Positions 11,163-60,790 of a stretch of DNA of 64,000 nt are shown here, piece by piece; the first letter of the stretch is position 1, and every line of letters begins with the position of its first letter. A program made the position numbers and the translations under genes. This stretch comes from a virus, in IMG/VR virus record IMGVR_UViG_3300034355_001150, positions 25,767-89,766 of that record; one strand, given 5' to 3'. The notes under the pieces are model-generated. The model was not told the DNA's origin and searched no databases. It was given only the letters and a program-made list of their open reading frames with translations.

Positions 11163-11912
11163 ATGAATCCCAATTACTTTTACGACCTAAAATATATCAG
11201 TCCATATCGGTTTTACATCTTTGAGTATTCAAAGTTGGACCCTGAACAGAAGGTGGATTTTTCTGTTTATTACGACGAGGGTATGATAGAGGCAGGCTTC
11301 TTTAATGATGAGAGTCTTGCTCTGCTTGACCAATACCGTGCTGTCCCTGCTCCCTACTCTTCGTACCCAAGTTTGGCACTTGAGTTTGATTGTGGTTCTA
11401 AAACTCCTGCATTCTTTACCAGACTACAGTTTAGAGCATTCAGAGCAGAAGAGACAATGGCTGGGTTGGCGTCTATTCTTGGTGTTTCTACACCTGCACT
11501 ACCCGTAGTCAATTCTCCAGCGGAATACGACGAAGTAGGCATTTATCCCGAAAGAAATCGCAATCAATTCAAGTTTGCCGTTCGCGGTCATGGCCAAGCG
11601 TTGAAGGATTTTGCTGACCTTCACGGCTGTAATAACACCGATGTAATAATGAGCGTGGATCATCCACCAATGAACACAGCGGTCAACTTCAATTGGGATG
11701 GCGAAAGGATGTCACATTTCACATTCTCTGCACCAGATTTAGGAGTGAATGACGAATGGGTTCAGCATGTCACTGAACACAATGCCGCTAAATGTGCTGA
11801 GTATTTTGGCGAGCGTGAATATAATATTCAACGTGTTGTGAAAATGTCAATAGGCACAGATTTGCCCGATGGGTACTTGAAGGCTTACTTCATTGTTAGA
11901 GCATCAAAATAA
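11163..11912 (+). CDS. Uncharacterised protein in the fibre cluster
   Basis: A 249-aa protein. The ATG at 11163 follows the previous stop by one base (TAATATG), so it is preferred over an upstream start that would overlap by 44 bases. The sequence (MNPNYFYDLKYISPYRFYIF) shows no signal peptide, membrane segment or catalytic motif I recognise. It lies between lectin-like genes and is probably co-transcribed with them, so a fibre accessory or assembly role is possible but unproven. Confidence 0.6.
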   Translation: MNPNYFYDLKYISPYRFYIFEYSKLDPEQKVDFSVYYDEGMIEAGFFNDESLALLDQYRAVPAPYSSYPSLALEFDCGSKTPAFFTRLQFRAFRAEETMAGLASILGVSTPALPVVNSPAEYDEVGIYPERNRNQFKFAVRGHGQALKDFADLHGCNNTDVIMSVDHPPMNTAVNFNWDGERMSHFTFSAPDLGVNDEWVQHVTEHNAAKCAEYFGEREYNIQRVVKMSIGTDLPDGYLKAYFIVRASK

Positions 11913-11918
11913 ACGATT

Positions 11919-12650
11919 ATGTCAATTACAGTAGAGTCAGGTATTACAGTTCAGAACGGAATCGTCATGGGCGATATACCGATTATCAGTGCTGGTGCCA
12001 ATACTCACACTATTGTCGCCAACACTAATGCTAGGATGTCAACCGCTCAAGCTAAGTTTGGAACAGCATCATACACAAGTAACTCTACAGCAGGTTATTT
12101 GCGTATCACTCCCTTTTCAGATTTTGTTTGGGGAACAGGTGATTTCACGATGGAAATGTGGCTTCGTCCTACATCGGTGACCTCAGCCTACACGTTGGTT
12201 GGATTTCGTCCAGCGAGTACAGAAGGTCTATTTCCTAATATATACGTAAATAACAACAATACAGTAAATTGGTATATTGCGACTGGCAACAGAATAACAT
12301 CTGCTCTTGGCATTCTGACCTTGAATGATTGGAACTCTATTGCGGTTGTTCGGTTATCGGGCAATACCAAGCTATACGTAAATGGCACCCAAACTGGTTC
12401 AACCTACGTTGATAACAATAACTACCAAGCTGGAGCGTGTATCATCGGGGCTAATGATTTTCAAAACGGTACCAGTTTGTTCGTACAAGGCAATCTGGAT
12501 GAAATCAGATTCAGTAATGTAGCAAGATACTCTGGCAATTACACGCCTGCTACTGGTCAATTTTGGCCAGATACTTTTACTCGGTTGTTGCTCCATTGTG
12601 ATGGTGCCAACAACAGCACATCTTTTACAGACTCAAGTAGCGCAGTATGA
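11919..12650 (+). CDS. LamG-like lectin protein, tandem copy 1
   Basis: A 243-aa protein and first of three tandem paralogues. The N-terminal 20 residues carry a short motif shared by all three (I-x-x-GIT-I/V ... GI-x-x-GD-I/M-P). A concanavalin A/LamG-like domain follows, with FGTASYTSN, GTGDFTMEMWLRP, WNSIAVVRLSGNTKLYVNG and GNLDEIRFSNVARYSGNYTP, ending LLLHCDGAN. LamG_3-type domains are common in phage and bacterial adhesins. The stop overlaps the next start by four bases (ATGA), so translation is probably coupled. Likely a virion-bound adhesin; the ligand is unknown. Confidence 0.7.
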   Translation: MSITVESGITVQNGIVMGDIPIISAGANTHTIVANTNARMSTAQAKFGTASYTSNSTAGYLRITPFSDFVWGTGDFTMEMWLRPTSVTSAYTLVGFRPASTEGLFPNIYVNNNNTVNWYIATGNRITSALGILTLNDWNSIAVVRLSGNTKLYVNGTQTGSTYVDNNNYQAGACIIGANDFQNGTSLFVQGNLDEIRFSNVARYSGNYTPATGQFWPDTFTRLLLHCDGANNSTSFTDSSSAV

Positions 12651-14091: not shown

Positions 14092-14112
14092 AAACAATTA
14101 TGCGAATTAAAA

Positions 14113-14120
14113 GATAAATA
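14113..14120 (+). promoter_or_regulatory. T4-like late promoter box GATAAATA
   Basis: The context ATTAAAAGATAAATACTAC ends about 17 bp before the start of the acidic protein gene. The same ATTAAAAGATAAAT string recurs before the structured RNA at 30.2 kb, which supports a real promoter rather than AT-rich chance. Confidence 0.65.
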
Positions 14121-14141: not shown

Positions 14142-15071
14142 ATGAAAATTAGCGATGTAATAAGAAATATCAGTGATATGGTAGACTCCACTCCAACCGA
14201 AAGGTCAAGTGGTGACAATACCAGCAAATTCACGGCATTTACTGGCGATTTAACTTTAGTTGAACTACCAGATGGTGAGGATGAAAAACGAAGAGAACCC
14301 GGCAAGATGCCTTCGGGCAATGATGAAATGCCGGAAGACCTTTATCTTCCACCGCTTCAATTAAAATCTGAACTATTGAAGAAAGCAGTAGATGTTGAAA
14401 ACGTTTTTGATGACGGCACTCCGGCTGTACGCTACAACGAAGAATATGGTGATGAGGGATGGCATGGCGATGATAACGATCATAGTTATATCGGTGCTCC
14501 TCAAACTGCTGAAGAAGTGGATGGACAACCTGATCCTAATGAAACCACCGATGGTTCTGATTCTGGCAAGCGTTCTAAACCAAGAGCAGATTCCGATGAT
14601 TCGGACGATGATGATTCGGACGACGATGAAGAACGTGAACGCGCTGATGAATCTTTGAATCGCATCCTTGAACTTGCTTTAGTAAAGGAATCAAACTATC
14701 ATGATTCTAAGTTCGTGGACAGGACTGAACGTCTTGAACGTCTAATGGCTCTTGATAAACGCACAGGTGAGTCAATTGATCGTATTCTTGAACTGGCTCT
14801 GGTAAAGGAATCAAACTATCACGATTCTATCGTTGAGTGGAGCGAGGATGACAACGAGGATCCGGATGTTGCCAAAGCAGACAGAGAGTTATCTCGCTTA
14901 GGCAAGACCTCTATCAAAGCAGCCAACATAGACACTGACAAAGATAAACTTGACGACAAGGAGGAAGAGCAGTTAGACGAGGAAGTCAAGGAAATGAATC
15001 GTATGCGTGAACTGGCCGGGTTGAACCCAGCAGTATTGTTCGCGCTCGGCGACGATGATTACCCGGTGTAA
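14142..15071 (+). CDS. Very acidic phage protein with repeated RILELALVKESNYHD motif
   Basis: A 309-aa protein, strongly acidic, with a poly-Asp/Ser stretch near residues 148-165. The 16-residue segment RILELALVKESNYHDS occurs twice (about 173 and 217), and a related helix NRMRELAGLNPAVL lies near the C-terminus. No signal peptide or catalytic motif is visible. It has its own late-type promoter and a strong terminator, so it is a single-gene late unit beside fibre genes. A head-core, scaffold or DNA-mimic role would fit the acidity, but nothing in the sequence proves one. Confidence 0.65.
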   Translation: MKISDVIRNISDMVDSTPTERSSGDNTSKFTAFTGDLTLVELPDGEDEKRREPGKMPSGNDEMPEDLYLPPLQLKSELLKKAVDVENVFDDGTPAVRYNEEYGDEGWHGDDNDHSYIGAPQTAEEVDGQPDPNETTDGSDSGKRSKPRADSDDSDDDDSDDDEERERADESLNRILELALVKESNYHDSKFVDRTERLERLMALDKRTGESIDRILELALVKESNYHDSIVEWSEDDNEDPDVAKADRELSRLGKTSIKAANIDTDKDKLDDKEEEQLDEEVKEMNRMRELAGLNPAVLFALGDDDYPV

Positions 15072-26627: not shown

Positions 26628-26658
26628 GATTTTTCCCCTGATTGAGTTGATGGAGAGT

Positions 26659-26686
26659 ATTATACAGAAAGATTTAAGATTGTCAA
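26659..26686 (-). promoter_or_regulatory. Sigma70-like promoter
   Basis: On the minus strand TTGACA, 16-bp spacer, TATAAT: both hexamers match consensus. It lies 32 bp before the acidic protein gene. Confidence 0.85.
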
Positions 26687-27089: not shown

Positions 27090-27117
27090 GTTTATTTCTC
27101 TCGTTGGTATGGCGAGT

Positions 27118-27145
27118 ATTATACAGAATGATTTGAGAATGTCAA
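27118..27145 (-). promoter_or_regulatory. Sigma70-like promoter
   Basis: TTGACA, 16 bp, TATAAT on the minus strand, 29 bp before the 38-aa gene. The string GAGTATTATACAGAA here recurs at other promoters in the window. Confidence 0.85.
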
Positions 27146-29119: not shown

Positions 29120-30013
29120 TCATATAATAATGAAGTATTTATCTGAAACCTCAAATTTCTTCAGAACAAGGCGCTCACCTTTCGCATTAGCTTCACCAAT
29201 CATACCTTCATCTGCCATCAGATTCACCAAGGCATGAACATACTTATCATTAAGGCGAAATTTCTTCTTCAGAATGTCATTAGTGATCTTCTTTTGGTGC
29301 AAAGTAAAGGTAGCTACCTTAAACCAAATCTTATCATCAGCATAACCTAACGTATGAACGTATGCCTTTATAAGAAGATTTCTATACTGATCGTCTTTTC
29401 TTTTATTCTTGATCCAATCATTGTAAAAATCAAGTGCCATTGCAATCAGAATAGTGCTTACAACGATAGTACCGATAATACCACCCAGATGAAGGTAAAC
29501 AAATTTAAGAATTATCACAATAAGAGCTACAAGAAGCACTGGAACAAAAAATGATGCAGCAGCGCCAACCAGTCCACCCACTATCATATCTGATATAAAT
29601 CCACCACCGTGGTGTGCATCAGCAAAAACGCCATAAATCATTCCGATAATTGTAAAAGGAATAATAGTAATTCCAGTGAATATACTACCCTGAGGAACCC
29701 ACTCTCTGTTTGATGTAGAAGAAGAAACACTTGAGGTAATTGACGAAACAGAATTGGAAACACTTGAGGTAATTGACGAAACAGAATTGGAAACACTTGA
29801 CGATGAACCTGCTAATGAAGATTTTGATCTCGAAGCGATATCGGAAAGTCCTTCAGAGGTAAGATCATAGCCTTGCATAAGAAAAATTGATCCTTTGCCA
29901 TAAGTAGCTTCGGCAATAGATGTTGCCATGCTCGTATTAAGAGCATCAATTTTTACATTAAAGGGATATTGACCATGAAGACGAATGGTAGCAAGAAATG
30001 AAGACATTGACAT
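29120..30013 (-). CDS. Membrane protein with Ser-rich repeat and winged-helix-like C-terminus
   Basis: A 297-aa protein. Residues 1-60 are soluble; 64-101 are low-complexity Ser/Val/Thr with the 11-residue unit NSVSSITSSVS repeated in tandem at the DNA level. Three or four membrane segments follow at about 110-132, 138-168 and 172-195. The C-terminal 80 residues (KKITNDILKKKFRLNDKYVH) look like a helix-turn-helix fold. It is in the inner membrane by prediction. A sigma70-like promoter precedes it, with GAGAGATAAAAATC before the ATG. Function unknown. Confidence 0.65.
   Translation of the reverse strand: MSMSSFLATIRLHGQYPFNVKIDALNTSMATSIAEATYGKGSIFLMQGYDLTSEGLSDIASRSKSSLAGSSSSVSNSVSSITSSVSNSVSSITSSVSSSTSNREWVPQGSIFTGITIIPFTIIGMIYGVFADAHHGGGFISDMIVGGLVGAAASFFVPVLLVALIVIILKFVYLHLGGIIGTIVVSTILIAMALDFYNDWIKNKRKDDQYRNLLIKAYVHTLGYADDKIWFKVATFTLHQKKITNDILKKKFRLNDKYVHALVNLMADEGMIGEANAKGERLVLKKFEVSDKYFIII
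29136..29143 (-). promoter_or_regulatory. T4-like late promoter box GATAAATA (minus strand)
   Basis: The box lies inside the last codons of the membrane-protein gene, 23 bp before the DUF4116-like gene, which would give it late expression separate from its early-type neighbour. Confidence 0.55.
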
Positions 30014-30046
30014 GATTTTTATCTCTCGTTGGTTGGTATGGAGAGT

Positions 30047-30074
30047 ATTATACAGAAAGATTCAGGAAAGTCAA
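30047..30074 (-). promoter_or_regulatory. Sigma70-like promoter
   Basis: TTGACT, 16 bp, TATAAT on the minus strand, 34 bp before the membrane-protein gene; it shares the GAGTATTATACAGAAAGATT string with the promoter at 26.66 kb. Confidence 0.8.
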
Positions 30075-30144
30075 ATGTTTTTTATGAGAGAAGGATGAAC
30101 GCAATAGTTCATTATAATGGAGAAATTGTGGTAGTAGGTTCAGA

Positions 30145-30192
30145 GATGAGCGTAGCTCATCTGATGATTGGTTAGCACCAATCATCTTTTTT
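30145..30192 (+). terminator. Double hairpin with strong rho-independent terminator
   Basis: Hairpin 1 (30145-30161): GATGAGC, loop GTA, GCTCATC. Hairpin 2 (30163-30186): GATGATTGG, 6-nt loop, CCAATCATC, followed by six T. This is a plus-strand terminator, yet no convincing plus-strand gene ends here. It could end a small RNA from 30.08-30.19 kb or insulate the RNA gene that follows from upstream transcription. Confidence 0.75.
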
Positions 30193-30207
30193 CTTACACG
30201 ATTAAAA

Positions 30208-30215
30208 GATAAATT
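30208..30215 (+). promoter_or_regulatory. Late-type promoter box for the structured RNA
   Basis: The context ATTAAAAGATAAATTC is nearly identical to the box before the acidic protein gene (ATTAAAAGATAAATAC). It sits between a terminator and the structured region. By analogy with T4, transcription would start near 30221. Confidence 0.5.
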
Positions 30216-30855
30216 CTTGTTTAATAAGAATATTATTGTTGAATAATGATGGAGGATAGTGAGATTTGAGATTACCTCACTTCGGGAGGATTGTGCTGGG
30301 TTTATGACAGCCCCCTTTCAGGGGACAATCATAATCTTCGGTTGGGACCGGAGGGATACAACAGGTAGGATTTTTTTGAACTCTTGGACGGGGGGCTCGC
30401 ACCCAACCCCGGTACCTACTGCGACTTTCTTATTAAGGGATTCCCTGGCGTTAATTTGGAATTCCCAGTCCTTCATCAAATAATGGTATTACTTGAAACA
30501 AGTTCAATAGACGATTGATTACTCAACCTCAAACCTATTACAGTGACGCAAAATTCCTTCTCCATAAGGAGAGGATTTTTAAAGGCATCCAGACACGCGA
30601 TGGACTGGGTAGTGCGCCAAGGCTTGGATGCGACCTCCAAAATTACGTTCCTCCACACAGCAGAGAGGCATTCCGTTGCCGAATTATCAGAGGAGCCGGC
30701 TATCTCCAAAAATCGCAGTGGGTGCCAGTTTTGTTTCCCACTCTGGCAAGTGGTTTGTAACGCTAGTTTAAAGGGCACCCGGTTACCTGGAGTCCACGGA
30801 GTAAGCTCTACCGCGAGGCGACGGTAATGATAATCAGATTATCTGCTTGCCCCGT

Positions 30856-30899
30856 CTGAACAAGCACTTTTATTTATACACAATACTACGCTTGTTCAG
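30856..30899. repeat. Perfect 10-bp inverted repeat at the 3' end of the RNA region
   Basis: CTGAACAAGC (30856-30865) and GCTTGTTCAG (30890-30899) flank a 24-nt loop. The left arm also belongs to a shorter hairpin (GCTTG/CAAGC) followed by TTTT, so the two folds compete. Confidence 0.75.
30871..30878 (-). promoter_or_regulatory. Exact TATAAATA box antisense to the structured RNA
   Basis: A perfect T4 late consensus on the minus strand within the loop of the inverted repeat. It would drive antisense RNA across the structured RNA. It could also be a chance AT-rich loop. Confidence 0.3.
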
Positions 30900-30920
30900 G
30901 AATCACGTCAAGTAAAAAGG

Positions 30921-31304
30921 TCAAATGCCACGTATTTTCTTAATCTCAGTTTTCATGTCATCAACCGATATTTTTCCATCTACGTATGATATCAATAGCG
31001 ATTTAAATTCCTTGATAAATTTTTTAATCTCAGTGCTTTCATAAGTATCCAAGGCATTCTTAACATACTTTGCGATTATTGTGGGATTGTTTCCGATAGA
31101 ATATGTTGCAACATGTATTCTATTCTTAAACACCTTCATTCTACATTTGGTGTGGGGTAATTCGTCGGGTTGAGTGCGAGTCCATAGCGTGATGTTACCG
31201 GGAATACCAGTAACATCAGCAATCAGATTGCCCATTTCGGCAATGAATGTATCTTCTCGTAGATTCATTCTGAGCTTATTATGAGGTAATTCAGAAATTT
31301 TCAT
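30921..31304 (-). CDS. Conserved-type phage protein, unknown function
   Basis: A 127-aa protein (MKISELPHNKLRMNLREDTF). The middle TLWTRTQPDELPHTKCRMKV and a helical C-terminus are visible; there is no catalytic, signal or membrane motif. Its ATG overlaps the stop of the gene before by four bases, and both share a pattern of basic beta strands plus a C-terminal helix ending (D/E)I(S/D)xxxMxxE(I/L)(K/R), so they may be distant paralogues. Last gene of the unit containing clpP. Confidence 0.6.
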   Translation of the reverse strand: MKISELPHNKLRMNLREDTFIAEMGNLIADVTGIPGNITLWTRTQPDELPHTKCRMKVFKNRIHVATYSIGNNPTIIAKYVKNALDTYESTEIKKFIKEFKSLLISYVDGKISVDDMKTEIKKIRGI

Positions 31305-42937: not shown

Positions 42938-42965
42938 ATTATACAGTAAAATTTTAGATTGTCAA
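42938..42965 (-). promoter_or_regulatory. Sigma70-like promoter
   Basis: TTGACA, 16 bp, TATAAT on the minus strand, overlapping the end of methyltransferase copy 1 and driving the two small genes. AATTAGTGTGATTAT at its edge recurs at 45.96 kb. Confidence 0.85.
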
Positions 42966-43870
42966 CAACTGCTCTCAATTAGCTCAATTTCTTCTTTGGT
43001 CAGATTAAAATGATTGTACAATTGCTGATTGGACCAGCTTCTTGTCAAGTCAAGTTTAGGAAAAACATTCAAGTTTTTCGTTTCATTATATTGAGTATGG
43101 CGATATACGCGAGAAAAAAATTTATACAGATTGCTATTAAACACTGTTTTTGCGTGTTCAACACTTTCTTCTTCTTTCAAGAGCATTGTTTGGCACCATC
43201 CTACACCATAATGTCCATCATCAATGATTACTTTTGTGGGTCCATTGTAGGGAATAACCACTTTCTTTTTTGATTTTAACGGTGATTCAATTTCACTCCA
43301 TCTTACAGGAATTCCAGAATCGTTTAAGTAATCCTTGCTAGAATTAACATGATGTATGTTTGCGTGTATGGCGTTCGCCGTTTTATTATCGGTATGATAG
43401 CCTGTTCCTTTATATTGATGATTTATGCCAGCTAAGAAAAAATTACAACGTGGTTCGGACGATTCTGTTAGCTTTTTTATAATAGTCAGCCCTTTGTTTG
43501 TAATTAGCTTGGTTTTCCTTAAATCAACTACATGAACACCATCATTGCAATTTATCTCAGATTTACCTTGATATTGATTTTTTTGTACAATAGTGTAGCC
43601 AAACGTAGAGGAAACATTAAAGTAATTTTTAATTCTATCCGATATGTCAGCGTATATCAGATTGTATTCTGAAAACACTCTCTCAATGATTTTTCCATTA
43701 TCGCTCGGAGAACACCAACCAGTTGGCGTAATTAAGCAAGTATATCCATTTTCTGCTGTGATGTCAACCGATAGCGTTAAAAACTCTTTCCACAGAGATT
43801 TGTTAGTTTGTCTTCCGTTTTTGGCGAGTTGTTTGAATGGTGGATTACCTACCACTATGTCAAATTTCAT
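42962..43870 (-). CDS. N6-adenine methyltransferase paralogue 1, short form lacking SAM domain
   Basis: A 302-aa protein beginning MKFDIVVGNPPF; NPPF is catalytic motif IV of N6-adenine (gamma-type) DNA methyltransferases. The SAM-binding motif I, which in the long copies precedes it by about 70 residues, is absent, so the protein is either a partner subunit or a store of sequence. The middle (about 60-260) differs from all other copies and should hold the target-recognition part. The C-terminus SWSNQQLYNHFNLTKEEIEL is shared with copy 5. ATG 43870 is preferred over the TTG one codon earlier. It lies 12 bases after copy 2. Confidence 0.75.
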   Translation of the reverse strand: MKFDIVVGNPPFKQLAKNGRQTNKSLWKEFLTLSVDITAENGYTCLITPTGWCSPSDNGKIIERVFSEYNLIYADISDRIKNYFNVSSTFGYTIVQKNQYQGKSEINCNDGVHVVDLRKTKLITNKGLTIIKKLTESSEPRCNFFLAGINHQYKGTGYHTDNKTANAIHANIHHVNSSKDYLNDSGIPVRWSEIESPLKSKKKVVIPYNGPTKVIIDDGHYGVGWCQTMLLKEEESVEHAKTVFNSNLYKFFSRVYRHTQYNETKNLNVFPKLDLTRSWSNQQLYNHFNLTKEEIELIESSC

Positions 43871-43882
43871 CAACCAATATTC

Positions 43883-44980
43883 TCAATAGTAATTTGGCAT
43901 AGCGTTTATTACGTCGCGCTCTTCTTGTGTGAATCCATAGAAGTCTTGTATTGAATCTTCAGTCCAAATTCTATCCAATGGCGGTAGTGGTACATTTTCA
44001 AAATATCGCTTAATAAACAAATGCTGTGATACCTTGTATATCACCAAGCCATATCTAGCCACCTTTGTTTTCAAATAAGATTTTAAGCTATCTTTTTCTT
44101 CGTCTGTGTTAATGACCAAACATTTAGCGCCATCTTTCAAGACATCAATTTTACTGTTCCTGTAGAAAAAAGTAAAATAATCATCAGTATTAAAATGTCC
44201 ACATATTTGAGGTAACGCAATAAATGGTCGGTTGGGTCGATCTGAAGATATATCATTCAAACACTTTTCTTTCGTTAATTCTTTGTATCTATTTACGAGA
44301 CTCAAAACAACGTCACTTGGTTCCCAAAACCCCGTAGGCAAATCAGAAATGTCTTTTATATAATATTTATTATCTGATTCTTTGTAATGCAATTTAATGT
44401 TATCTTGGTTGTTCTTTATAGCATATGTTACGCATAGATAGCAACTGAATAGGCCCTTTCCAAATAACTCGTTGCCATCCATAAATGTTAATTGTTTAAG
44501 TCTTCCCTTTAGCTCTCTTCTGACTTCTTTTTCTATAGAAGAATTGCCTCGATATGTCCACCCCGATGGGTGAATCAAGCAAACAATATCAGCTATCTGC
44601 AAACATTTCAATAAAAAATCTAAGTGGGTATTTTTTAAATAAGGTGGATTGCCCACCACTATGTCAAATTTCATATCTGTTTCCCATGTCAAAAAGTCGG
44701 CTCTGATTACGTTCTTGAATCGGCCATGCAACATCATGCGATTAGTTGCCCATATTGCCTTATCAAGAACGTATATGCGATTATTTATGTAGTCATTGTC
44801 AAAGCCTAATTTTCGCATTCTTCTTACAATCACTTTTGACTCGGTTCCATAGCCACAGGCAACATTCAGTATCTTAATATCTGGATTTAAAAATACCTCG
44901 TCGGGTATTTGGTCAATGATTTCTGTCCACAATTCAATACTATCTGGATCACCTAAAAAGCAATTGCCGCCGTATCCCAT
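43883..44980 (-). CDS. N6-adenine DNA methyltransferase paralogue 2, long form
   Basis: A 365-aa protein. The N-terminal 114 residues carry KILNVACGYGTE (motif I, SAM binding, about 37-47), the VLDKAIWATN acidic strand, and DMKFDIVVGNPPY (motif IV at 111-114), and are nearly identical in DNA to copy 5. After NPPY the sequence diverges completely (LKNTHLDFLLKCLQIADIVC), giving a different putative target-recognition region, then a C-terminal IWTEDSIQDFYGFTQEERDV segment. Expected product: N6-methyladenine in phage DNA at a specific site. It is preceded by an AGGAATTTTA leader. Confidence 0.85.
   Translation of the reverse strand: MGYGGNCFLGDPDSIELWTEIIDQIPDEVFLNPDIKILNVACGYGTESKVIVRRMRKLGFDNDYINNRIYVLDKAIWATNRMMLHGRFKNVIRADFLTWETDMKFDIVVGNPPYLKNTHLDFLLKCLQIADIVCLIHPSGWTYRGNSSIEKEVRRELKGRLKQLTFMDGNELFGKGLFSCYLCVTYAIKNNQDNIKLHYKESDNKYYIKDISDLPTGFWEPSDVVLSLVNRYKELTKEKCLNDISSDRPNRPFIALPQICGHFNTDDYFTFFYRNSKIDVLKDGAKCLVINTDEEKDSLKSYLKTKVARYGLVIYKVSQHLFIKRYFENVPLPPLDRIWTEDSIQDFYGFTQEERDVINAMPNYY
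44639..44980 (-). repeat. 342-bp direct repeat, copy A (shared methyltransferase N-terminal half)
   Basis: Matches 48239-48580 at an offset of exactly 3600 bp. Positions 44639-44820 are identical and the remaining 160 bp have about 18 differences. Identity stops abruptly just past the NPPY codons. Large enough for homologous recombination. Confidence 0.95.
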
Positions 44981-45048
44981 TAAAATTCCTCCATAGATTA
45001 ATTGTTGTTAATAACTGTTCTCATTTGTTTTAGGTCATGTCAAGTCTT

Positions 45049-45864
45049 TTACGAGGTTTCTTTTTTTCTAACAAGTACATCTAAGATGTATTCTTGCTCC
45101 GTGGCGGAGATATTGAACAATGAGAATAATTCTGAATCATTCATATTAATTCCGGAAATTTTTGGCATCCTTGCTAAATTTCTATAGCTCACTTGCGCTG
45201 CATTGGCAAAAGAATATACACAAAATCTACCAAGAAGTGATTTGGATAAATACCAAGAGTTAAGGTGAGCTTCCGTCTCCGAATCCATCTTTAAAAACAT
45301 ACCTCTGCCATTCTCAATTATTCCTTCGTTTGTATGATTCACTCTTGAAATAACTGACTTTTTTCCACCCTTTGGTTTTGTGTGACAAAAACGAATATAT
45401 GCAGAATCAACAAAAACATAATCTTTTGCAATCTCGTTTCGTGATAGAAACAATTTTTCTCCCGAGGAGTTAAACACTTTGTCTATTATGGATGCCCCCA
45501 CAATGTTTGTGGCCTGTATGGGTAACGCCTTTTGCATATCCCAATCAATGTGCGATTCCGAGAAGATGACTTTTGTTGTTTTTGTAACCAATCCCAAAGA
45601 CTTTGAACCAATAAAACCAGCAATGTTTGTTCCAATTCCCGGAAAACTTTCATTCAGGTTGGCAAATACTGTTGTTAATGAAAATAAATTATGTATTATT
45701 TTAGCACTTTTAGACCCCGGATCTAAAAATCTATTGGGAACAACGAATGCAATCAATCCGTCTTCTGAAAGAACTTTTCCAGACTTTTCTATAAATTTTG
45801 TATAATACGAAGAATCACCGTCTATTTTATATGGCGGATTTCCAACCACAATGTCAAATTTCAT
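45049..45864 (-). CDS. N6-adenine methyltransferase paralogue 3, N-terminally truncated
   Basis: A 271-aa reading from the ATG of MKFDIVVGNPPYK. Upstream the frame stays open to 45957 and still encodes LDRTIWATN ... NVIRADFLTWETD, the counterpart of residues 72-102 of copies 2 and 5, then meets a stop. So about 70 N-terminal residues including motif I were lost, right where the AP2-like gene ends. After NPPY it has typical Eco57I/TaqI-like features (IAFVVPNRFLDPGSKSAKII and a C-terminal SYRNLARMPKISG). Either a short form like copies 1 and 4 or a decaying gene. A TTG start at 45918 is also possible. Confidence 0.7.
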   Translation of the reverse strand: MKFDIVVGNPPYKIDGDSSYYTKFIEKSGKVLSEDGLIAFVVPNRFLDPGSKSAKIIHNLFSLTTVFANLNESFPGIGTNIAGFIGSKSLGLVTKTTKVIFSESHIDWDMQKALPIQATNIVGASIIDKVFNSSGEKLFLSRNEIAKDYVFVDSAYIRFCHTKPKGGKKSVISRVNHTNEGIIENGRGMFLKMDSETEAHLNSWYLSKSLLGRFCVYSFANAAQVSYRNLARMPKISGINMNDSELFSLFNISATEQEYILDVLVRKKETS

Positions 45865-45956
45865 ATCTGTTTCCCATGTCAAAAAGTCGGCTCTGATGAC
45901 ATTATTGAACCCACCCAAAATACGTATCCGATTGGTAGCCCAAATGGTCCTATCTA

Positions 45957-45971
45957 ATTAGTGTGATTATT
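45957..45971. repeat. 15-bp promoter fragment repeated at a truncation point
   Basis: AATTAGTGTGATTAT at the junction where copy 3 loses its N-terminus also occurs at 42930-42944 beside the promoter of the small-gene pair. It looks like a recombination scar carrying part of a promoter region. Confidence 0.5.
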
Positions 45972-46581
45972 AATCTTCTAGGTTAAATAGATTTATAAAT
46001 TCCTGTGGGGTTAGATATTCTTTTGCCCTGATAACAACGTCGTTGCCATATTTGGCAAACAACGCCTTCCCGTCATATTTTTCGTATATCTGAGGCCATA
46101 GACCTTTATTATCGTTAACCGAACGAGTGGGAAAAGCGACGCGAATCTTTAATTTACTAGAAACCGTAACGTTACCTGCATTTCTCTTAATCGACTTGAG
46201 TTTGATATCCTTCAAAATTTTTGAAGCCTCTTCTTTGTCCAATCCACTGGGTGCATTGTATAGATCGCTGGGGAAATCAACCCAGCGTCCGTTCTCATGA
46301 ATCCAATAATCAACATTGATAGGATCAATTTTAAATAGCTCTGTTACATATGCCGCCTCTCTGGCATCTGCATAATATCCGCCGTGCCAAGAAGTTCTTT
46401 CTTGTGCATATAATTGTGAACGAATAGAGGTATCTGATGGATTGGCACATGCCGCAATAAATGGTTTGGATTCATCCAATGTCCAAGCAGTGGATAATGC
46501 GGCTCCGGTGTAACCCGACCTATTTGATTTTCTGGTTGACAGATGAATTTTTATGCCGGTGGAAAGAGTAATAGTGGTCAT
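45970..46581 (-). CDS. AP2-like DNA-binding protein inserted in the methyltransferase array
   Basis: A 203-aa protein. ATG 46581 follows GGAGACAAACA and is preferred over an upstream start that overlaps the promoter. Residues about 20-85 (GYTGAALSTAWTLDESKPFI ... HGGYYADAREAAYVTELF) resemble an AP2/ERF-like domain, which in phages is usually the DNA-binding part of homing endonucleases. The C-terminal half (KIRVAFPTRSVNDNKGLWPQ) contains no HNH or GIY motif that I can see. It has its own early promoter and sits at the broken end of copy 3, suggesting it arrived as a mobile gene. Confidence 0.5.
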   Translation of the reverse strand: MTTITLSTGIKIHLSTRKSNRSGYTGAALSTAWTLDESKPFIAACANPSDTSIRSQLYAQERTSWHGGYYADAREAAYVTELFKIDPINVDYWIHENGRWVDFPSDLYNAPSGLDKEEASKILKDIKLKSIKRNAGNVTVSSKLKIRVAFPTRSVNDNKGLWPQIYEKYDGKALFAKYGNDVVIRAKEYLTPQEFINLFNLED

Positions 46582-46635
46582 TGTTTGTCTCCTCGTTAAA
46601 ATTAAGACTTGAACGAACTTCAAATCATTGGGAGT

Positions 46636-46663
46636 ATTATACAGTAAAATTTTTACTTGTCAA
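46636..46663 (-). promoter_or_regulatory. Sigma70-like promoter of the AP2-like gene
   Basis: TTGACA, 16 bp, TATAAT on the minus strand, overlapping the last codons of copy 4 and 55 bp before the AP2-like gene. Confidence 0.85.
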
Positions 46664-47477
46664 CCTTTTTTACTCTACTCTCTATGAAATTTATCTCATC
46701 ATCGGACAGCAAGAAATGCTTATAAACATCGTTATTGGTCCACATTCTATCAGAATCTAACTTTGGTAACAAATTATTATTTTTTACCACTGGAGTAAAT
46801 CCAGCTGTTTTAAGATGGTTGTCGGCATAAAAGCGATATAAATTACTGTTGGTATATGATAAAATATTATTGCCCTCCTTTATGTTCGTTATAGGAAGAA
46901 TTTTATTAAATTTACAAGTGGGCGAATCGGTTATGAATTGCGAGGAGTAACTTGCGCTGAAAGGATAGACTATTTTGAGGCCGACATTATTTGGCTTTAA
47001 ATCTGTGTTCGTTTTGTTTTTGCCGCTATAATAAATCTCACAATCCCCTATGTTTAAATTCTCTTTTGTTATTTGCGGGTTCTCGTATATCAAAGATAAA
47101 AATTCCGCGCTATCTAACATTTTAGACACAATAGAGTCAATCATTGGATCTCTTAGTATTGGAAGCATAACCTTTTTGTGCTTTGAACTTCTCGTTACTA
47201 CCCAATGACATGTATTCACTCCAACTGAAAACCATTGTTTTTCTTTGTGTACAGAAGCATGAGTTAAAGTTAGTTGATTATTCAATCTATCCTTAAACCA
47301 CTTTCCCATACCGACCGTGTAATCAAAAATAGATGCAGGTGTTACGAATGCAACAAACCCGATGTCGGTAACTAGGGTGAGTGTTTTTTTCGCGAATTTA
47401 TGCCATAATTTATTATTTTTAGCTTTATTGTTGTTGTCCTGATAAGGTGGATTGCCCACCACTATGTCAAATTTCAT
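46653..47477 (-). CDS. N6-adenine methyltransferase paralogue 4, short form lacking SAM domain
   Basis: A 274-aa protein beginning MKFDIVVGNPPYQ, with motif IV but no motif I. The body (GFVAFVTPASIFDYTVGMGK, HWVVTRSSKHKK) is a third distinct variable region and the end RMWTNNDVYKHFLLSDDEIN is the shared C-terminal helix pair. Its ATG overlaps the stop of copy 5 (ATGA), so the short form is translated together with a full enzyme. It could work as a second specificity subunit using the SAM domain of copy 5. Confidence 0.75.
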   Translation of the reverse strand: MKFDIVVGNPPYQDNNNKAKNNKLWHKFAKKTLTLVTDIGFVAFVTPASIFDYTVGMGKWFKDRLNNQLTLTHASVHKEKQWFSVGVNTCHWVVTRSSKHKKVMLPILRDPMIDSIVSKMLDSAEFLSLIYENPQITKENLNIGDCEIYYSGKNKTNTDLKPNNVGLKIVYPFSASYSSQFITDSPTCKFNKILPITNIKEGNNILSYTNSNLYRFYADNHLKTAGFTPVVKNNNLLPKLDSDRMWTNNDVYKHFLLSDDEINFIESRVKKVDK

Positions 47478-48580
47478 TGACCAATTTTCTCAATTAGCTC
47501 AATTTCTTTGTTAGTCAGATTAAAATGATTATACAATTCTACGTCGGACCACGCCATGTTGGTGTCAACCATCGGTAATGATTGCAAAATTCCGGTACTC
47601 GATTGCCCTGCCTCTCCGCCAAGTATTTTAAACACGTAGCAAAACAACTTGCTATTGAATATTGTTTTATAATTTGCAAGATTTTTTGTATCAGCTATCA
47701 CCATAGTTTGTGCAGAATGATTAGTGTCCGACGAACGACCGATAAAAAGTTTATCGTATTTTTTGAATCGTCCTCCGTTTATCTTAACCACCAAATCAGA
47801 TTCCTTCGACTTATCGCATTCTGTAAATTTCCATTTCTTGGAGGAATATGTTTTGTTCAATATACTTAGATTATCTGGAGTAACATCAAACGGAATAGGA
47901 CAGGAAGCATCTACATCGCAGTAAGTAGAATCATTATTATTTAAGATAAGACATTGTCCAACATAATTTTTGGACATAACAAATGCACTTATGCGAATAC
48001 CAACATTGAAATGATGCGAAACATCCGGGTATATTCCGATGAATTTAAAATTATTTTTATAAATAAATGTTATCTTGTTTGTTTCCTTGCCAAAATTTGA
48101 TATAGAAAAAATTGAAGTGGGAACTATCATTGCTATAGTTGTATTTTCGCTTGACAATTCAACGGCTTTTGTCAAAAAAGCCCACCAAAAGCCTCCTTGT
48201 TTATTGTTCTTGCATTTTATAGCTGCGGTCGATGCCTGATAAGGTGGATTGCCCACCACTATGTCAAATTTCATATCTGTTTCCCATGTCAAAAAGTCGG
48301 CTCTGATTACGTTCTTGAATCGGCCATGCAACATCATGCGATTAGTTGCCCATATTGCCTTATCAAGAACGTATATGCGATTATTTATGTAGTCATTGTC
48401 AAAGCCTAATTTTCGCATTCGGCGAACGATCACTTTTGACTCGGTTCCATAGCCACAGGCAACATTCAGTATCTTAATATCTGGATTTAGAAATACCTCA
48501 TCGGGTATTTTGTCAATGATTTCTGTCCACAATTCCTCGCTATCGGGATCACCCAAGAAGCAATTACCACCATATCCCAT
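47474..48580 (-). CDS. N6-adenine DNA methyltransferase paralogue 5, long form
   Basis: A 368-aa protein with motif I (KILNVACGYGTE, about 37-47) and motif IV NPPY at 111-114 in an N-terminal half nearly identical to copy 2. The variable region is different (QASTAAIKCKNNKQGGFWWA and on) and the C-terminus (MAWSDVELYNHFNLTNKEIE) is close to copy 1. The start shares a base with the stop of the helicase C-terminal ORF, placing it in one operon with the helicase. Predicted N6-adenine methylation; the target site is unknown. Confidence 0.85.
   Translation of the reverse strand: MGYGGNCFLGDPDSEELWTEIIDKIPDEVFLNPDIKILNVACGYGTESKVIVRRMRKLGFDNDYINNRIYVLDKAIWATNRMMLHGRFKNVIRADFLTWETDMKFDIVVGNPPYQASTAAIKCKNNKQGGFWWAFLTKAVELSSENTTIAMIVPTSIFSISNFGKETNKITFIYKNNFKFIGIYPDVSHHFNVGIRISAFVMSKNYVGQCLILNNNDSTYCDVDASCPIPFDVTPDNLSILNKTYSSKKWKFTECDKSKESDLVVKINGGRFKKYDKLFIGRSSDTNHSAQTMVIADTKNLANYKTIFNSKLFCYVFKILGGEAGQSSTGILQSLPMVDTNMAWSDVELYNHFNLTNKEIELIEKIGQ
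48239..48580 (-). repeat. 342-bp direct repeat, copy B
   Basis: Second copy of the repeat described at 44639-44980. A shorter 34-bp piece of it (starting at AAGGTGGATTGCCCACC) also begins copy 4 near 47443, and a diverged version begins copy 1 near 43848. Confidence 0.95.
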
Positions 48581-55883: not shown

Positions 55884-56696
55884 TTATTCTCCGTTAAAAA
55901 TTATTTTTGTCAATAAGTCTATGCCATCTATGGCATTCATTTGCATAGATATATCTTGTTTGCGTGATATATCCGGTTCATATAGGTTTATCCTAATCAA
56001 TTTGCTGGTTCTTTCTGCACCAAACCATCTAATAGATGGGATAGTTTTACCAGCCCCTATCTCAATTCCGACAATGTTTTTCTTATCAGATTCCCATTCG
56101 GTATATGATCTTTGTTGTTCGTCCACCCGATTGAAACAAAAAGCAGGATCATTGAACATCATTACTTTTGGTCTCAAATAGCTACCGCAATTTGGGCAGG
56201 TTGGTATATCTTTTTCGCTGGTCAGTACATCAGTAAAATTCGGCATAGGCCAATCTTCGCGTGTGCATTGATCAACACATTGAATATATCGCAAATTACC
56301 GTGAATTTCAAGCAATTTGTTTGAATCATATCCAGCCTTTAAAAAGTGACCATCAACATTGGATGTTACCGAGAATATATCCTTTCCTAATTCTTTAAGC
56401 CTCAGTAATTGTACATATCCCTTATGAGGAGTTAATGACATTCCGGTTATCAATCTGGTAATATAAAAGTTCCATGCTTCCAAAGGATGAATGGCAAATG
56501 CGTCGGCTGTAGCAAATTTCATGAAATTACTTTGCTCACTTGTCCATATTCCATCTTTTCCCCTAAAGTCCGGTATTCCAGAATCAACGCTCATACCCGC
56601 CCCAGATAGAATAACAATCCCATCTGCTTCATCAATCATCTTTTTGATTTGATTATCCAGCACAGCTTTCGCATTCTCCTTTACTAGCTTGAACAC
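55884..56696 (-). CDS. Sir2-family NAD-dependent protein deacylase (sirtuin)
   Basis: A 270-aa reading. Family motifs: VILSGAGMSVDSGIPDFRG (NAD binding), SNVDGHF (113-118 area), catalytic His132 in LLEIHGNL, Zn cysteines Cys140/Cys144 and Cys167/Cys170, and IEIGAGKTIPSIR in place of the usual GTSLxVxPA. Sirtuins remove acyl groups from lysines while consuming NAD. The GTG start at 56696 overlaps the RNR gene by 44 bases; a GTG at 56663 (after AAGGAG) or ATG at 56639 are alternatives that keep the motifs. It is co-transcribed with nrdA. In a phage it may act on host proteins or NAD metabolism. Confidence 0.88.
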   Translation of the reverse strand: MFKLVKENAKAVLDNQIKKMIDEADGIVILSGAGMSVDSGIPDFRGKDGIWTSEQSNFMKFATADAFAIHPLEAWNFYITRLITGMSLTPHKGYVQLLRLKELGKDIFSVTSNVDGHFLKAGYDSNKLLEIHGNLRYIQCVDQCTREDWPMPNFTDVLTSEKDIPTCPNCGSYLRPKVMMFNDPAFCFNRVDEQQRSYTEWESDKKNIVGIEIGAGKTIPSIRWFGAERTSKLIRINLYEPDISRKQDISMQMNAIDGIDLLTKIIFNGE

Positions 56697-57648
56697 CCGA
56701 TTCTGATCTAATATAATACAATGATTTAATCAACGGATCATTAAATGCCATCTGATGAACTTCTGAGATATATTCTTCTGATTCATCTGACGAGAAAAAT
56801 AGATTGATGGATTGCGCTTGGTCTATAAATTGCTGTCTTACTGAAGCTAATCTTATAATGACCTTTTGATCAATTTCAAATGCCGTTTTAAATACTTTTT
56901 TCTCTTCTTCGTTTAACCATTCAACATCTTGCACCGAGCCATTATGATTGATTACTTCGTTGATGTGCTTATCATCATAAATTCCTTTTTCCTTCAACAG
57001 TTCCAAAAATACCGGATTGATTCTGTTCATTTCTCCAGCAGCAGAACCTTGTACGTAGACATTTTTATAAACGGGTTCAATTCCCTGTGATACGCCTCCC
57101 ATAATTCCGGCTGTTGATAGCGTTGGTGCAACAGCCAATAGATGAGAATTTCTACGATTATATCCTCTGCACCATTCTGGTTCGCCAAATGCTTCTGCCA
57201 TCCATCGTGTTGCCTTTTCTGATTCTTCTTTAATTTTTTTGAAGATTTCTGCATTCTTAAAGTGAGCTTCTATTGATTCAAACGGAATCATATTTAATTG
57301 CAAATAGGTATGAAATCCCATTACGCCAAGTCCTAATGCTCTTGACTTTTCCGTGAACCTGACTGCTTTTTCTAAACCTTTTATTTTTTTACCAATAGAA
57401 ATAAACTCAGATGCGACACAGTCTAAGAATACAGAAGAAACAAAAATAGTATCGGTATCTTTCCATTCATCATACTTAGCTAAATTCAACGAAGATAATA
57501 CGCATGTATAGGTATGTTCATCATCGGAGAACAACGTGATCTCTGTGCAATTATGAACCAAAATGTCGTTTCCGAAGAAGTTATTATTGTCTTCTACTGT
57601 TATATCATAAACATCTTCTAGATAGTCAACCTCTTCAATTAATAGCAT
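56653..57648 (-). CDS. nrdA: Class I ribonucleotide reductase large subunit, C-terminal part with C-intein
   Basis: A 331-aa protein. Residues 1-33 are the C-terminal half of a split intein (block F VYDITVEDNNNFFGNDI, block G LVHN), followed by Cys34, the +1 residue, and the C-extein CTEITLFSDDEHTYTC. NLC-TEI is the RNR segment carrying the thiyl-radical cysteine, so the intein splice residue is the catalytic Cys itself. The rest includes the barrel strands and a C-terminal GECESCAG with the redox Cys pair. AAGAGG stands six bases before ATG. After trans-splicing with the N-part the enzyme would be about 564 aa, shorter than T4 or E. coli NrdA, which have an extra N-terminal ATP cone. Confidence 0.92.
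   Translation of the reverse strand: MLLIEEVDYLEDVYDITVEDNNNFFGNDILVHNCTEITLFSDDEHTYTCVLSSLNLAKYDEWKDTDTIFVSSVFLDCVASEFISIGKKIKGLEKAVRFTEKSRALGLGVMGFHTYLQLNMIPFESIEAHFKNAEIFKKIKEESEKATRWMAEAFGEPEWCRGYNRRNSHLLAVAPTLSTAGIMGGVSQGIEPVYKNVYVQGSAAGEMNRINPVFLELLKEKGIYDDKHINEVINHNGSVQDVEWLNEEEKKVFKTAFEIDQKVIIRLASVRQQFIDQAQSINLFFSSDESEEYISEVHQMAFNDPLIKSLYYIRSESGVQASKGECESCAG
57550..57648 (-). other. Split-intein C-half (33 aa)
   Basis: Encodes LEDVYDITVEDNNNFFGNDI and LVHN; His32-Asn33 are the splice-junction pair, and Cys34 begins the extein. The length is typical of natural C-inteins. Confidence 0.9.
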
Positions 57649-58612
57649 CTAATACCTCTTTAACATTAATTTTGTTTCTCATTTTGTTATACCTATTGTA
57701 TTCTAAATTTAACTCTTTACAAACCGGCGAAATCAAATTGTTTTTAACATCACCATTAAACCTAAACCCACTTTTAGCACCGCCGCCGAGATTTGGAAAT
57801 TTTCTAAATTTGTGTTTTTCATCCCAAATCAACTTAATCAATTTTAATCCTGGCAATTCATTAAATTGGTATTTTTCGGCAATCACAGACGCAACCTTTA
57901 CGTAAAAATCATAGATTTCATCATCGGTTATTCCGCTGTATTTTGGGTTATTTGTTCCGGTTGTCTGATCATCTTTATTTGAAGCAGATACCCAATCTTC
58001 AATATTGTCCAAATCGTTCTTATTGCAATATCTTCCTTCTCCGGTTTTTTTATTATAAAATTTGTGTTTATTCTTTGAATGATGAACCCATTCACCCGAA
58101 ACGACTTTTGGGTGATTTTTTTCAACTGATCCAACTATTTCTCCGGTTAATACATCTTTTACTGGAAAAGTTCCTTTTCTTGATATTGATATTCTGTGTT
58201 TTCCTTCTTTTGTTTGCCACCCGTTAGTTTTACGAAAACTCGAAGAATTTTGCCTCATCCATGCATAAGAATTTCGTATTTTTCTATTTAAACAGGTTTT
58301 AATATTTTTCAATTTCTTTTTGCTGTTAAACCCGTTTATAACAAACTTAATAGCAATAAAATCACATCGTTCACCATAAGCTTTATATCTTATTAAATGC
58401 GCAAACAAATGTTCTTCTGGCAAAAGCGTAACTATATTATCTATGTTATTTGAACCCCCAACACTTTTTGGAATTATATGATGCCCCTCGACATATAATT
58501 CTAAATTATTTACTATTCGTAAATCTTTGGGGTTTCGTTTCCTTAACCGAGCAAAAGGGGTTGTTCTTTGACAATAATTGATAAATGTTTCATATAATTT
58601 AATATAATTCAT
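57635..58612 (-). CDS. HNH homing endonuclease between the split-intein halves
   Basis: A 325-aa protein. The HNH core is ELYVEGHHIIPKSVGGSNNI with TLLPEEHLFAHLI (His/Asn/His). A NUMOD-like DNA-binding unit follows (FPVKDVLTGEIVG ... HPKVVSGEWVHHSKN), matching the 32-aa repeats of the endonuclease at 15-16 kb, and a C-terminal basic region. It is a free-standing gene exactly between the two parts of nrdA and overlaps the C-part start by 14 bases. It should cut intein-less nrdA alleles and spread the fractured-gene arrangement. Its leader contains a hairpin with an internal late promoter. Confidence 0.85.
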   Translation of the reverse strand: MNYIKLYETFINYCQRTTPFARLRKRNPKDLRIVNNLELYVEGHHIIPKSVGGSNNIDNIVTLLPEEHLFAHLIRYKAYGERCDFIAIKFVINGFNSKKKLKNIKTCLNRKIRNSYAWMRQNSSSFRKTNGWQTKEGKHRISISRKGTFPVKDVLTGEIVGSVEKNHPKVVSGEWVHHSKNKHKFYNKKTGEGRYCNKNDLDNIEDWVSASNKDDQTTGTNNPKYSGITDDEIYDFYVKVASVIAEKYQFNELPGLKLIKLIWDEKHKFRKFPNLGGGAKSGFRFNGDVKNNLISPVCKELNLEYNRYNKMRNKINVKEVLDAIN

Positions 58613-58617
58613 GTTTT

Positions 58618-58651
58618 AATTCCTCTTCGTGTATTTATACGAAGAGGAATT
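58618..58651 (-). promoter_or_regulatory. Hairpin-embedded late promoter masking the HNH ribosome site
   Basis: A perfect 13-bp stem (AATTCCTCTTCGT/ACGAAGAGGAATT) with an 8-nt loop. The minus-strand TATAAATA box (58632-58639) lies in the loop. The downstream arm contains AGAGGA, the ribosome site for ATG 58612. A read-through transcript would fold and hide it; a late transcript starting near 58626 would begin at AGAGGA with the upstream arm missing and be translatable. T4 uses this arrangement for I-TevI. Confidence 0.85.
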
Positions 58652-58664
58652 TCACTACATAAAA

Positions 58665-59789
58665 CTATAAAATTTTGAGTTCATCAGAAGTTGTCAAATT
58701 GCCAGCCTCAACATAACCTCTATTTTTAGTATAGATGAGATGACAAGGAGTACAAACTAAACTTTTGCCAGAAGTTTCATCTGTAATTTTAATCAATTTC
58801 GCATCTTTTTTCGTTAAAGCAAAATCAACAATTTTTTTCCATTCAATTTTGTTTGATTCTATATTAAACGACTTCGTTAATAACGGAATGCCATTATCTA
58901 AAAATAATCCAACAAGTTTGATGGGAAGTACAAATTCTTCCGACGATTCGTCCTCAATTTTTACTTGAACCAAAGTATTTCCGGTTACACAGAGATTACT
59001 CGCCTTTACTTTTAATCCATTATCTTTGTAACATTTGGGTGTCAGCTTGTTTACCTTGTCAACAAAAAAGAAATATCCCTTTCCGGTTACCATCTTGGTT
59101 TTCATAACCTTTTGATACCTTGAAATAGCTTTTTTATCGCCTGAGTTCAATCTCCTAATGAATTTATCAGTTATAACCCACCCGATATTACAATCATCTG
59201 GGCTTGAATTGAGGAAGTTAATGATCTCCCAAAAATCTTCATGATCAATTTCAATATATCCAGCCCATGCTCCACGCCTCGTGTTGCCCTGAGATATATC
59301 TCTGGACAATTGAACAAAGTCTTTCAATACAGGAAGAACACCAGATGCCTTTCCGCCAGATGAGATTTCTGTTCCTCTATGTCTGATTGCACCAAGATAC
59401 GAGCTTGTACCAAAACCGTTCTTGGATAACATTGCTATTTCTTTTTGAGTATCATAAAAGTCATACACACAATCATTGACAAAATTACCAGAGCAGCTTA
59501 CATTACATCCTCTATCGGTTCCCATGTTGGCGAGAATCGGAGTAGCACAAGATAGCCAACCATTCCAAATAACTGTATAAAATTTATGTTCCCAATACTC
59601 TGGATCATCAGTCCATTTAGCCGCACATTTGCTAATTCTACGAGCTACTGACTTAAAGTCCTTTTCTGTTTTAGTTGCGTATTTTGAAGAGAATAATTGC
59701 CACCCAGCGGTCGTAAACCAATCAGGTAAAACGCCTTCCTCTTGGAGACGTTTGCGTTCTTCGGATAGATCTTCGTAAATTGTCTTCAT
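58665..59789 (-). CDS. nrdA: Class I ribonucleotide reductase large subunit, N-terminal part with N-intein
   Basis: A 374-aa protein. ATG 59789 overlaps the nrdB stop (ATGA), so it is preferred over a start 14 codons upstream. N-extein residues 1-266 contain SCATPILANMGTDRGCNVSC, NGFGTSSYLGAIRHRG and the QGNTRRGAWAGYI strand, ending KASNL. Residues 267-374 are the N-intein: CVTGNTLVQV (block A) and GKSLVCTPCHLIYT (block B, normally TPDH) ending DELKIL. It splices in trans with the C-part. The enzyme reduces ribonucleotides for DNA synthesis with NrdB as radical source. Confidence 0.92.
   Translation of the reverse strand: MKTIYEDLSEERKRLQEEGVLPDWFTTAGWQLFSSKYATKTEKDFKSVARRISKCAAKWTDDPEYWEHKFYTVIWNGWLSCATPILANMGTDRGCNVSCSGNFVNDCVYDFYDTQKEIAMLSKNGFGTSSYLGAIRHRGTEISSGGKASGVLPVLKDFVQLSRDISQGNTRRGAWAGYIEIDHEDFWEIINFLNSSPDDCNIGWVITDKFIRRLNSGDKKAISRYQKVMKTKMVTGKGYFFFVDKVNKLTPKCYKDNGLKVKASNLCVTGNTLVQVKIEDESSEEFVLPIKLVGLFLDNGIPLLTKSFNIESNKIEWKKIVDFALTKKDAKLIKITDETSGKSLVCTPCHLIYTKNRGYVEAGNLTTSDELKIL
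58668..58991 (-). other. Split-intein N-half (108 aa)
   Basis: Starts with Cys1 after extein SNL. Block B reads CTPCHLIYT, where the usual Asp before His is Cys. It resembles the known NrdA-type split inteins from environmental phage sequences. Confidence 0.9.
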
Positions 59790-60790
59790 GCCGCTTCCTC
59801 TACCGACCAATTGAATCCCTTCTCGTTCCAATCTCGCTTATATGAATTGCCAATTTTATAGAAAAAATCATGCAATTGAGGTGCGTTGATGTTTTTATAG
59901 AACCAAGTTTTGATTGGATTGTATTGAGGATTATAGTGTTTTTCAAATCCAAGTTGTTCTAAACAAAGATCAAGTCGATGCTGAATAAACGATTTTAGCT
60001 GATGGTCGGTAATTCCCTTGATATTGCCCTTCTCAAAAATCATATCTATAATTCTATCCTCGTGTTCTTTGATGTGTTCTACTGTTTCTAATAGGTCTGT
60101 GTTTAATTTCGTTATTTGTTCTTGTGATAATTCGCTTTCTGCCAACAGAGTTCTGAACAACCATGCTCCGGCAATAGAATGAAGATTCTCATCTCTGACG
60201 GAGAAGTTAATTCCGGCAGTAACGTTCACCAACTTGTTTTTTCCCTCTGATTGAAAATGCTTCAAGAAAGCAAATGATGAGTACAAGATAGCGCCTTCAA
60301 TCATTGAAAAAACAGCTAATGATTTCAGAATATCAATGATATTGTCAGAAGGTTTGGCGATTACCTTATTGATCCAATTTATTCTATTGAACAACACCGA
60401 ATCTTCAACATAAGAATTGTAGAATTCGTCTGTGTTCAATCCAAGAACTTCGTTTAGTTTGTTATAGAATGGTGCATGAACATTTAGCTCAAAAAAACTA
60501 AAACAGTTGCTCATTCGTTCAATATCTGGCCTGGGGAAAAGCCTTTTTATTTTTCCAGACCAATATTCTTTGCCTACTACCAATTCATATAACGTGAATA
60601 GCTTTAAGGTAGTAATTACTCCATGATACTCAGCATCAGTGAAATTGGTCTTCATATCATGAAGGTCCTTTTCCACCTCTATTTCATTGGGATGCCAAAA
60701 AATATCCATTTGTTGGTTTGCAAACTCAACCGCTTCGGGATAATCTATCGTGTATGTTGTTTTTTCTTGTAATAGTCTTGGTTTTTCCAT
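59786..60790 (-). CDS. nrdB: Class I ribonucleotide reductase small subunit
   Basis: A 334-aa protein. Probable metal ligands are Glu69 (LFTLYELVVG), Glu101 and His105 (FFELNVHAPFY), Glu165 (SMIEGAILYSSFAF) and Glu201/His204 (RDENLH), with Tyr109 four residues after His105, as for the radical tyrosine in the E. coli enzyme. The Glu-to-His spacing at the second ligand pair is four rather than the usual three. It generates the radical used by NrdA. The stop overlaps the nrdA start by four bases, so the subunits are coupled. Confidence 0.93.
   Translation of the reverse strand: MEKPRLLQEKTTYTIDYPEAVEFANQQMDIFWHPNEIEVEKDLHDMKTNFTDAEYHGVITTLKLFTLYELVVGKEYWSGKIKRLFPRPDIERMSNCFSFFELNVHAPFYNKLNEVLGLNTDEFYNSYVEDSVLFNRINWINKVIAKPSDNIIDILKSLAVFSMIEGAILYSSFAFLKHFQSEGKNKLVNVTAGINFSVRDENLHSIAGAWLFRTLLAESELSQEQITKLNTDLLETVEHIKEHEDRIIDMIFEKGNIKGITDHQLKSFIQHRLDLCLEQLGFEKHYNPQYNPIKTWFYKNINAPQLHDFFYKIGNSYKRDWNEKGFNWSVEEAA

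Follow-up and report, generated by a model that had tools for sequence, protein, structure and literature searches.

We found that a gap between two minus-strand genes of a T4-like environmental phage is a real, noncoding orphan locus flanked by late-type promoters. Our best single guess, to which we give a probability of about 0.35, is that the minus strand of the gap is transcribed late into a noncoding RNA, which would be at least about 650 nt long. We infer minus-strand transcription, a switch in start site, and any function from the promoter elements, the noncoding state, and the predicted helices of the gap.

The window, by which we mean the whole 64,000-nt stretch of DNA that was analyzed, corresponds to bases 25767 to 89766 of an 89,766-base virus record. 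By translation, its gene content includes GroEL/GroES-, ClpP-, and ribonucleotide-reductase-like genes, with long tail-fiber-like genes on the plus strand, and several genes of the record are preceded by T4-type late boxes. The neighbors of the gap, both on the minus strand, are a 127-aa gene (end at 30921) and a 297-aa gene (start at 30013), with a 650-aa gene behind the latter. The features of the locus, in window coordinates, are as follows.

30047 to 30074, minus strand: promoter of the 297-aa gene, a near-perfect sigma-70-type match (TTGACT-16-TATAAT)
30163 to 30186, plus strand: terminator-like hairpin and T-run
30187 to 30920, no strand assigned: noncoding, G+C-rich gap and candidate RNA locus, with spurious-like codon scores, no six-frame protein family, and the highest G+C sampled between 26 and 64 kb
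30208 to 30215, plus strand: late-type box GATAAATT, with +1 at about 30221, ranked 19th in the record by profile
30290 to 30329, no strand assigned: gap-free three-way junction of the earlier note (ATTGT/ACAAT, GCTG/CAGC, and CCCC/GGGG in the letters)
30382 to 30642, minus strand: predicted long-range helix region, 30633-30617 with 30412-30397 and 30642-30636 with 30388-30382 (probability about 0.5)
30464 to 30609, minus strand: best-defined predicted domain, in which CCCAGUCC/GGACUGGG close three hairpins, one of them capped by a GUAA tetraloop (pair probabilities about 0.7 to 0.96)
30844 to 30866, minus strand: proposed first helix GCUUG...CAAGC of the late RNA, which cannot form together with the inverted repeat (predicted, with a pair probability of about 0.7)
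30856 to 30899, minus strand: perfect 10-bp inverted repeat CTGAACAAGC/GCTTGTTCAG, with the late box between its arms
30871 to 30878, minus strand: exact T4-type late box TATAAATA, with predicted +1 at 30865, ranked 54th in the record by profile
26686-26659, 27145-27118, 33104-33077, 42965-42938, 46663-46636, and 52213-52186, minus strand: TTGACA-16-TATAAT sites

An earlier note on this DNA had described the gap as free of credible ORFs, and we agree. The stretch from 30014 to 30920 (907 nt) has no credible long ORF, with one exception at its edge, a 48-aa ORF. We scored codon usage with a measure trained on the record's own genes and found that every ORF of at least 40 aa between 30259 and 30827 scored from −0.13 to +0.02; the two right-flanking genes scored 0.127 to 0.141, and spurious ORFs average −0.09. 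When six-frame translations of the gap, with stops masked, were searched against Pfam and PHROGs, there was no match at an E value of ≤1, and the individual gap ORFs matched no family in either collection above chance. A decayed protein gene was rejected as an explanation because these six-frame profile searches show no trace of one. Base composition also sets the gap apart, as 30261 to 30860 is 48% G+C, the highest of the 600-base stretches sampled between 26 and 64 kb of the window, and the other long gaps have 34 to 39%. We concluded that 30187 to 30920 is noncoding, to the extent that a single sequence allows such a conclusion. The 48-aa ORF at the edge (30029-30175, plus strand) lies outside the interval of the earlier note and ends inside the terminator hairpin; its codon score is gene-like, and it is either a small gene or a chance frame.

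The best nonrandom clue is the minus-strand late box with its inverted repeat, which is the best-supported promoter architecture of the locus and lies on the opposite strand from the promoter of the earlier note and at the far end of the gap from it. We favor a minus-strand late RNA because the gap is noncoding, the box is an exact TATAAATA, and the repeat is rare by chance: arms of at least 10 were found around random positions in 5 of 3,000 trials. The record has about 50 matches to [TG]ATAAAT[AT], of which only two, this one and one at 58639, have arms longer than 7. We take the spacing of T4 late promoters to place +1 at 30865, exactly where the 3′ arm of the repeat begins. When upstream sequence was included in the predicted fold, the 10-bp hairpin formed; when the RNA was started at 30865, the same strand paired with CAAGC downstream. 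That the first helix begins at the predicted +1 is a further reason why we favor this reading.

According to this model, the box at 30878-30871 would direct phage-modified polymerase to start at 30865, and no protein would be produced. In RNA that reads through early from the genes upstream, the 5′ arm would sequester the 3′ arm, GCUUGUUCAG. A late transcript would begin exactly where the 3′ arm does, leaving that strand free to pair with CAAGC at 30849-30845 as the first helix. We propose that the native fold would be possible only when the RNA is made late, because the late start frees the 3′ arm. The product would most likely be a stable late-infection RNA that acts by its structure or by binding protein or RNA.

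Late-promoter hairpins of T4 offer the closest comparison. At T4 gene e and I-TevI, a late promoter lies in the 5′ part of a helix, and late transcripts escape the structure that blocks early read-through; related helices occur at soc, gene 49, and stand-alone homing endonucleases, and the T4 helix hides the ribosome site of the ORF just downstream (PMC3014915). The gap is similar in that a TATAAATA-type box lies in the DNA for the 5′ part of the hairpin (30899-30856, minus strand), and late transcripts would lack the 5′ arm. In contrast to the T4 cases, the gap helix hides no ribosome site and no gene-like ORF follows; downstream of 30856, we found neither a gene-like minus-strand ORF nor a start codon with a ribosome site. 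The other repeat-enclosed box of the record, TATAAATA at 58639, has a 12-bp perfect inverted repeat (58618-58641, minus strand) and heads an HNH endonuclease ORF (57635-58612, minus strand), which is thus headed by a hairpin-enclosed late box, as is T4 I-TevI. We also favor the minus-strand late RNA because this sole matching box-repeat heads an HNH ORF, as is known in T4 (PMC3014915).

The HNH ORF lies between the halves of nrdA (ribonucleotide reductase large subunit), which occupies 56653-59831 on the minus strand in two ORFs, 58665-59831 and 56653-57648. The ORF at 56653-57648 begins with an intein C-terminal splicing domain, and the locus looks like a split-intein "fractured gene" arrangement.

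The pairing of promoter-hairpin and endonuclease can also be read as history. The gap could be without function today, either neutral DNA or what is left of a lost gene whose promoter-hairpin survives, such as one for a stand-alone homing endonuclease. In favor of this are the only matching promoter-hairpin of the record, which heads an HNH endonuclease ORF, a folding energy within the normal range of the genome, and the lack of a homologue in the collections searched. It sits poorly with the stop-masked six-frame profile searches, which show no protein-family trace, with the compactness of phage genomes, and with the distinct base composition of the gap. We consider neutral or remnant DNA somewhat unlikely.

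A late minus-strand transcript could instead continue into the 297-aa gene (30013) and the 650-aa gene, in which case the gap would be a long untranslated leader that tunes their late expression. The box has the same strand and order as these two genes, and nothing resembling a minus-strand terminator separates the gap from the 297-aa gene; none was found between 30220 and 30075. Against this, the 297-aa gene owns the near-perfect sigma-70-type promoter at 30074-30047, and a leader of 850 nt would be unusual in a record whose other late boxes mostly lie 20 to 60 nt before a gene. A long leader is, in our view, unlikely. The 297-aa protein itself (29120-30013, minus strand) is serine rich with hydrophobic stretches, and its C terminus weakly matches the FtsK gamma domain (E = 1.7e-4, below the Pfam cutoff). 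Several perfect TTGACA-16-TATAAT promoters of the window, all on the minus strand and with a spacing of exactly 16 nt, are likely an early-promoter set.

The earlier note had placed the promoter on the plus strand, and by that reading a late RNA would start at 30221 from GATAAATT, be insulated by the 30163-30186 terminator, and end near the 30856-30899 hairpin. We confirmed the terminator-like plus-strand hairpin and its T-run, which lie just upstream of the box. Against a late-box profile built from ten other boxes, the plus-strand box outscored the minus-strand box (19th versus 54th). The late boxes of this phage are (A)AGATAAATA, sometimes TATAAATA, and lie mostly 20 to 60 nt ahead of a gene. 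The plus-strand box had been called identical in context to that of a protein gene, and the context does agree over 14 nt, since ATTAAAAGATAAAT is common to it and to the box of the tail-region gene at 14142 (window 14106-14119). The final base of the box deviates: GATAAATT has a T where late boxes of this phage have an A, so this last base is unlike every late box seen. A plus-strand RNA could also form the gap-free three-way junction at 30290-30329, but plus-strand folding is below the genome average, and the proposed 3′ end has no terminator. We regard a plus-strand late RNA as quite unlikely.

Folding of the two strands bears on the same choice. Compared with dinucleotide shuffles, the plus strand gave z scores of −0.7 to −1.3, weaker than genome-window means of about −1.6 to −1.9, and the minus strand gave −2.8 to −3.9, in about the top tenth of genome windows. 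In the calibration, windows drawn at random from this genome had mean z scores of about −1.5 to −1.9 for either strand, and in 34% of them (35 windows, 16 shuffles each) one strand reaches −2.8 or lower. For local folding, 75% of 68 windows did at least as well as the plus strand of the gap and 10% equaled or surpassed its minus strand. The minus strand folded better than the plus strand in all seven 200-nt windows starting from 30100 to 30700 and in 145 of 150 shuffle comparisons overall; several of its predicted helices contain G-U pairs, which become A-C mismatches on the plus strand, and one of them carries the GUAA tetraloop. We had at first taken the minus-strand z score as proof of structure and withdrew this after genome calibration: folding energy is no proof of an RNA gene because ordinary genome windows reach similar values. 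These results only weakly support a structured gap, and such folding signal as exists favors the minus strand. We favor the minus-strand late RNA also because that strand folds better than the plus strand and matches the strand of the neighboring genes.

The individual helices of the earlier note fared unevenly. It had chosen the less stably folded strand, whose energy is not special, and had described the gap as packed with perfect helices; we found 13 perfect stems of at least 6 bp versus 6.8 in shuffled sequence, weakly above chance, and 6% of windows had counts as high. The three-way junction is present in the letters, with no unpaired junction bases, and is absent from the minimum free energy (MFE) folds of both strands. 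The long-range pair of GCATCCA (30585-30591) with TGGATGC (30625-30631) is likewise there, and the supposed 12-bp hairpin at 30550-30579 proved to have an interrupted stem.

The gap had also been likened to large ornate phage RNAs such as GOLLD and ROOL. We found no Rfam family above its cutoff, and a search of the gap alone at an E value of ≤10 gave only chance-level matches to unrelated families; those to Polynucleobacter-1, RatA, 6S-Flavo, and group II D5 were rejected as far below the cutoff. The GOLLD covariance model (RF02032) had no match in the record at an E value of ≤10 and none in the gap by permissive scans. The ROOL model (RF03087) had no match at an E value of ≤10, in a search without a working positive control, and none in permissive scans. 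GOLLD and ROOL often sit near phage tRNA islands (PMC12286853), and we found no tRNA in the record. The comparison is therefore not supported, as direct model searches were empty, there is no tRNA, and there is no homologue for covariation. The gap resembles GOLLD as a large noncoding phage locus for which we propose late expression, and ROOL in its similar length (574 model positions) and phage setting. It differs from both in the lack of a model match, of a nearby tRNA or tRNA island, and of covariation support. Thus, the gap should not be filed under GOLLD or ROOL, both of which it resembles in setting.

A new structured RNA in the gap is possible but unproven. We think it improbable that the gap represents a new class of large late minus-strand phage RNA in which a promoter-embedded hairpin would misfold early read-through and the RNA's own late start would permit folding. 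If a discrete late RNA is made, it would join GOLLD and ROOL among the few large RNAs of phages whose function is unknown, and it would be a case in which a T4-style switch of start site governs how an RNA folds instead of its translation. If not, the locus is a caution that helices counted by eye, together with single-sequence MFE, do not tell an RNA gene apart from ordinary DNA of a phage.

Searches for relatives gave no homologue. A blastn search of the gap in phages and plasmids was negative, and neighbor proteins and ORFs of the gap, used as bait, drew no homologue from viral or bacterial genome contigs. The gap DNA matched nothing beyond chance in 98 records of ClpP/GroEL-bearing phages, and in 50 of these a covariance model built on the single sequence of the best-defined domain likewise gave nothing beyond chance. 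Two 15-mer scans of viral contigs returned only chance or coding matches. Matches of 66 to 67% in L251, L252, L276, L299, and L335 were rejected because all lie in one gene family, and a 15-mer match in L255 was rejected because it lies inside an open frame. Because no homologue was found, no helix has covariation support. The phage is isolated in the collections searched, since the nearest GroEL and ClpP are only 69 to 72% identical, and missing homologues therefore say little about missing function. Against the minus-strand late RNA we count the missing homologue, the ordinary fold energy, the lower box score than that of the plus strand, and the lack of a terminator between 30220 and 30075.

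Within the record, there is no paralogous copy of the gap; repeats of 25 to 31 nt (window 26650-26674 and 27103-27133) are a shared early promoter. Tandem, partly similar methyltransferase-like ORFs occur at 42962-48580 (minus strand) and L170:176-1791 (minus strand), share the motifs MGYGGNCFLGDPDS and MKFDIVVGNPP, and form a family that recurs across the two parts of the record. L170 also carries a TnpB-like ORF (11320-12048, plus strand) with an IS605 OrfB/Cas12f-like TNB domain, which adjoins a 602-bp gene-poor gap (L170:10718-11319).
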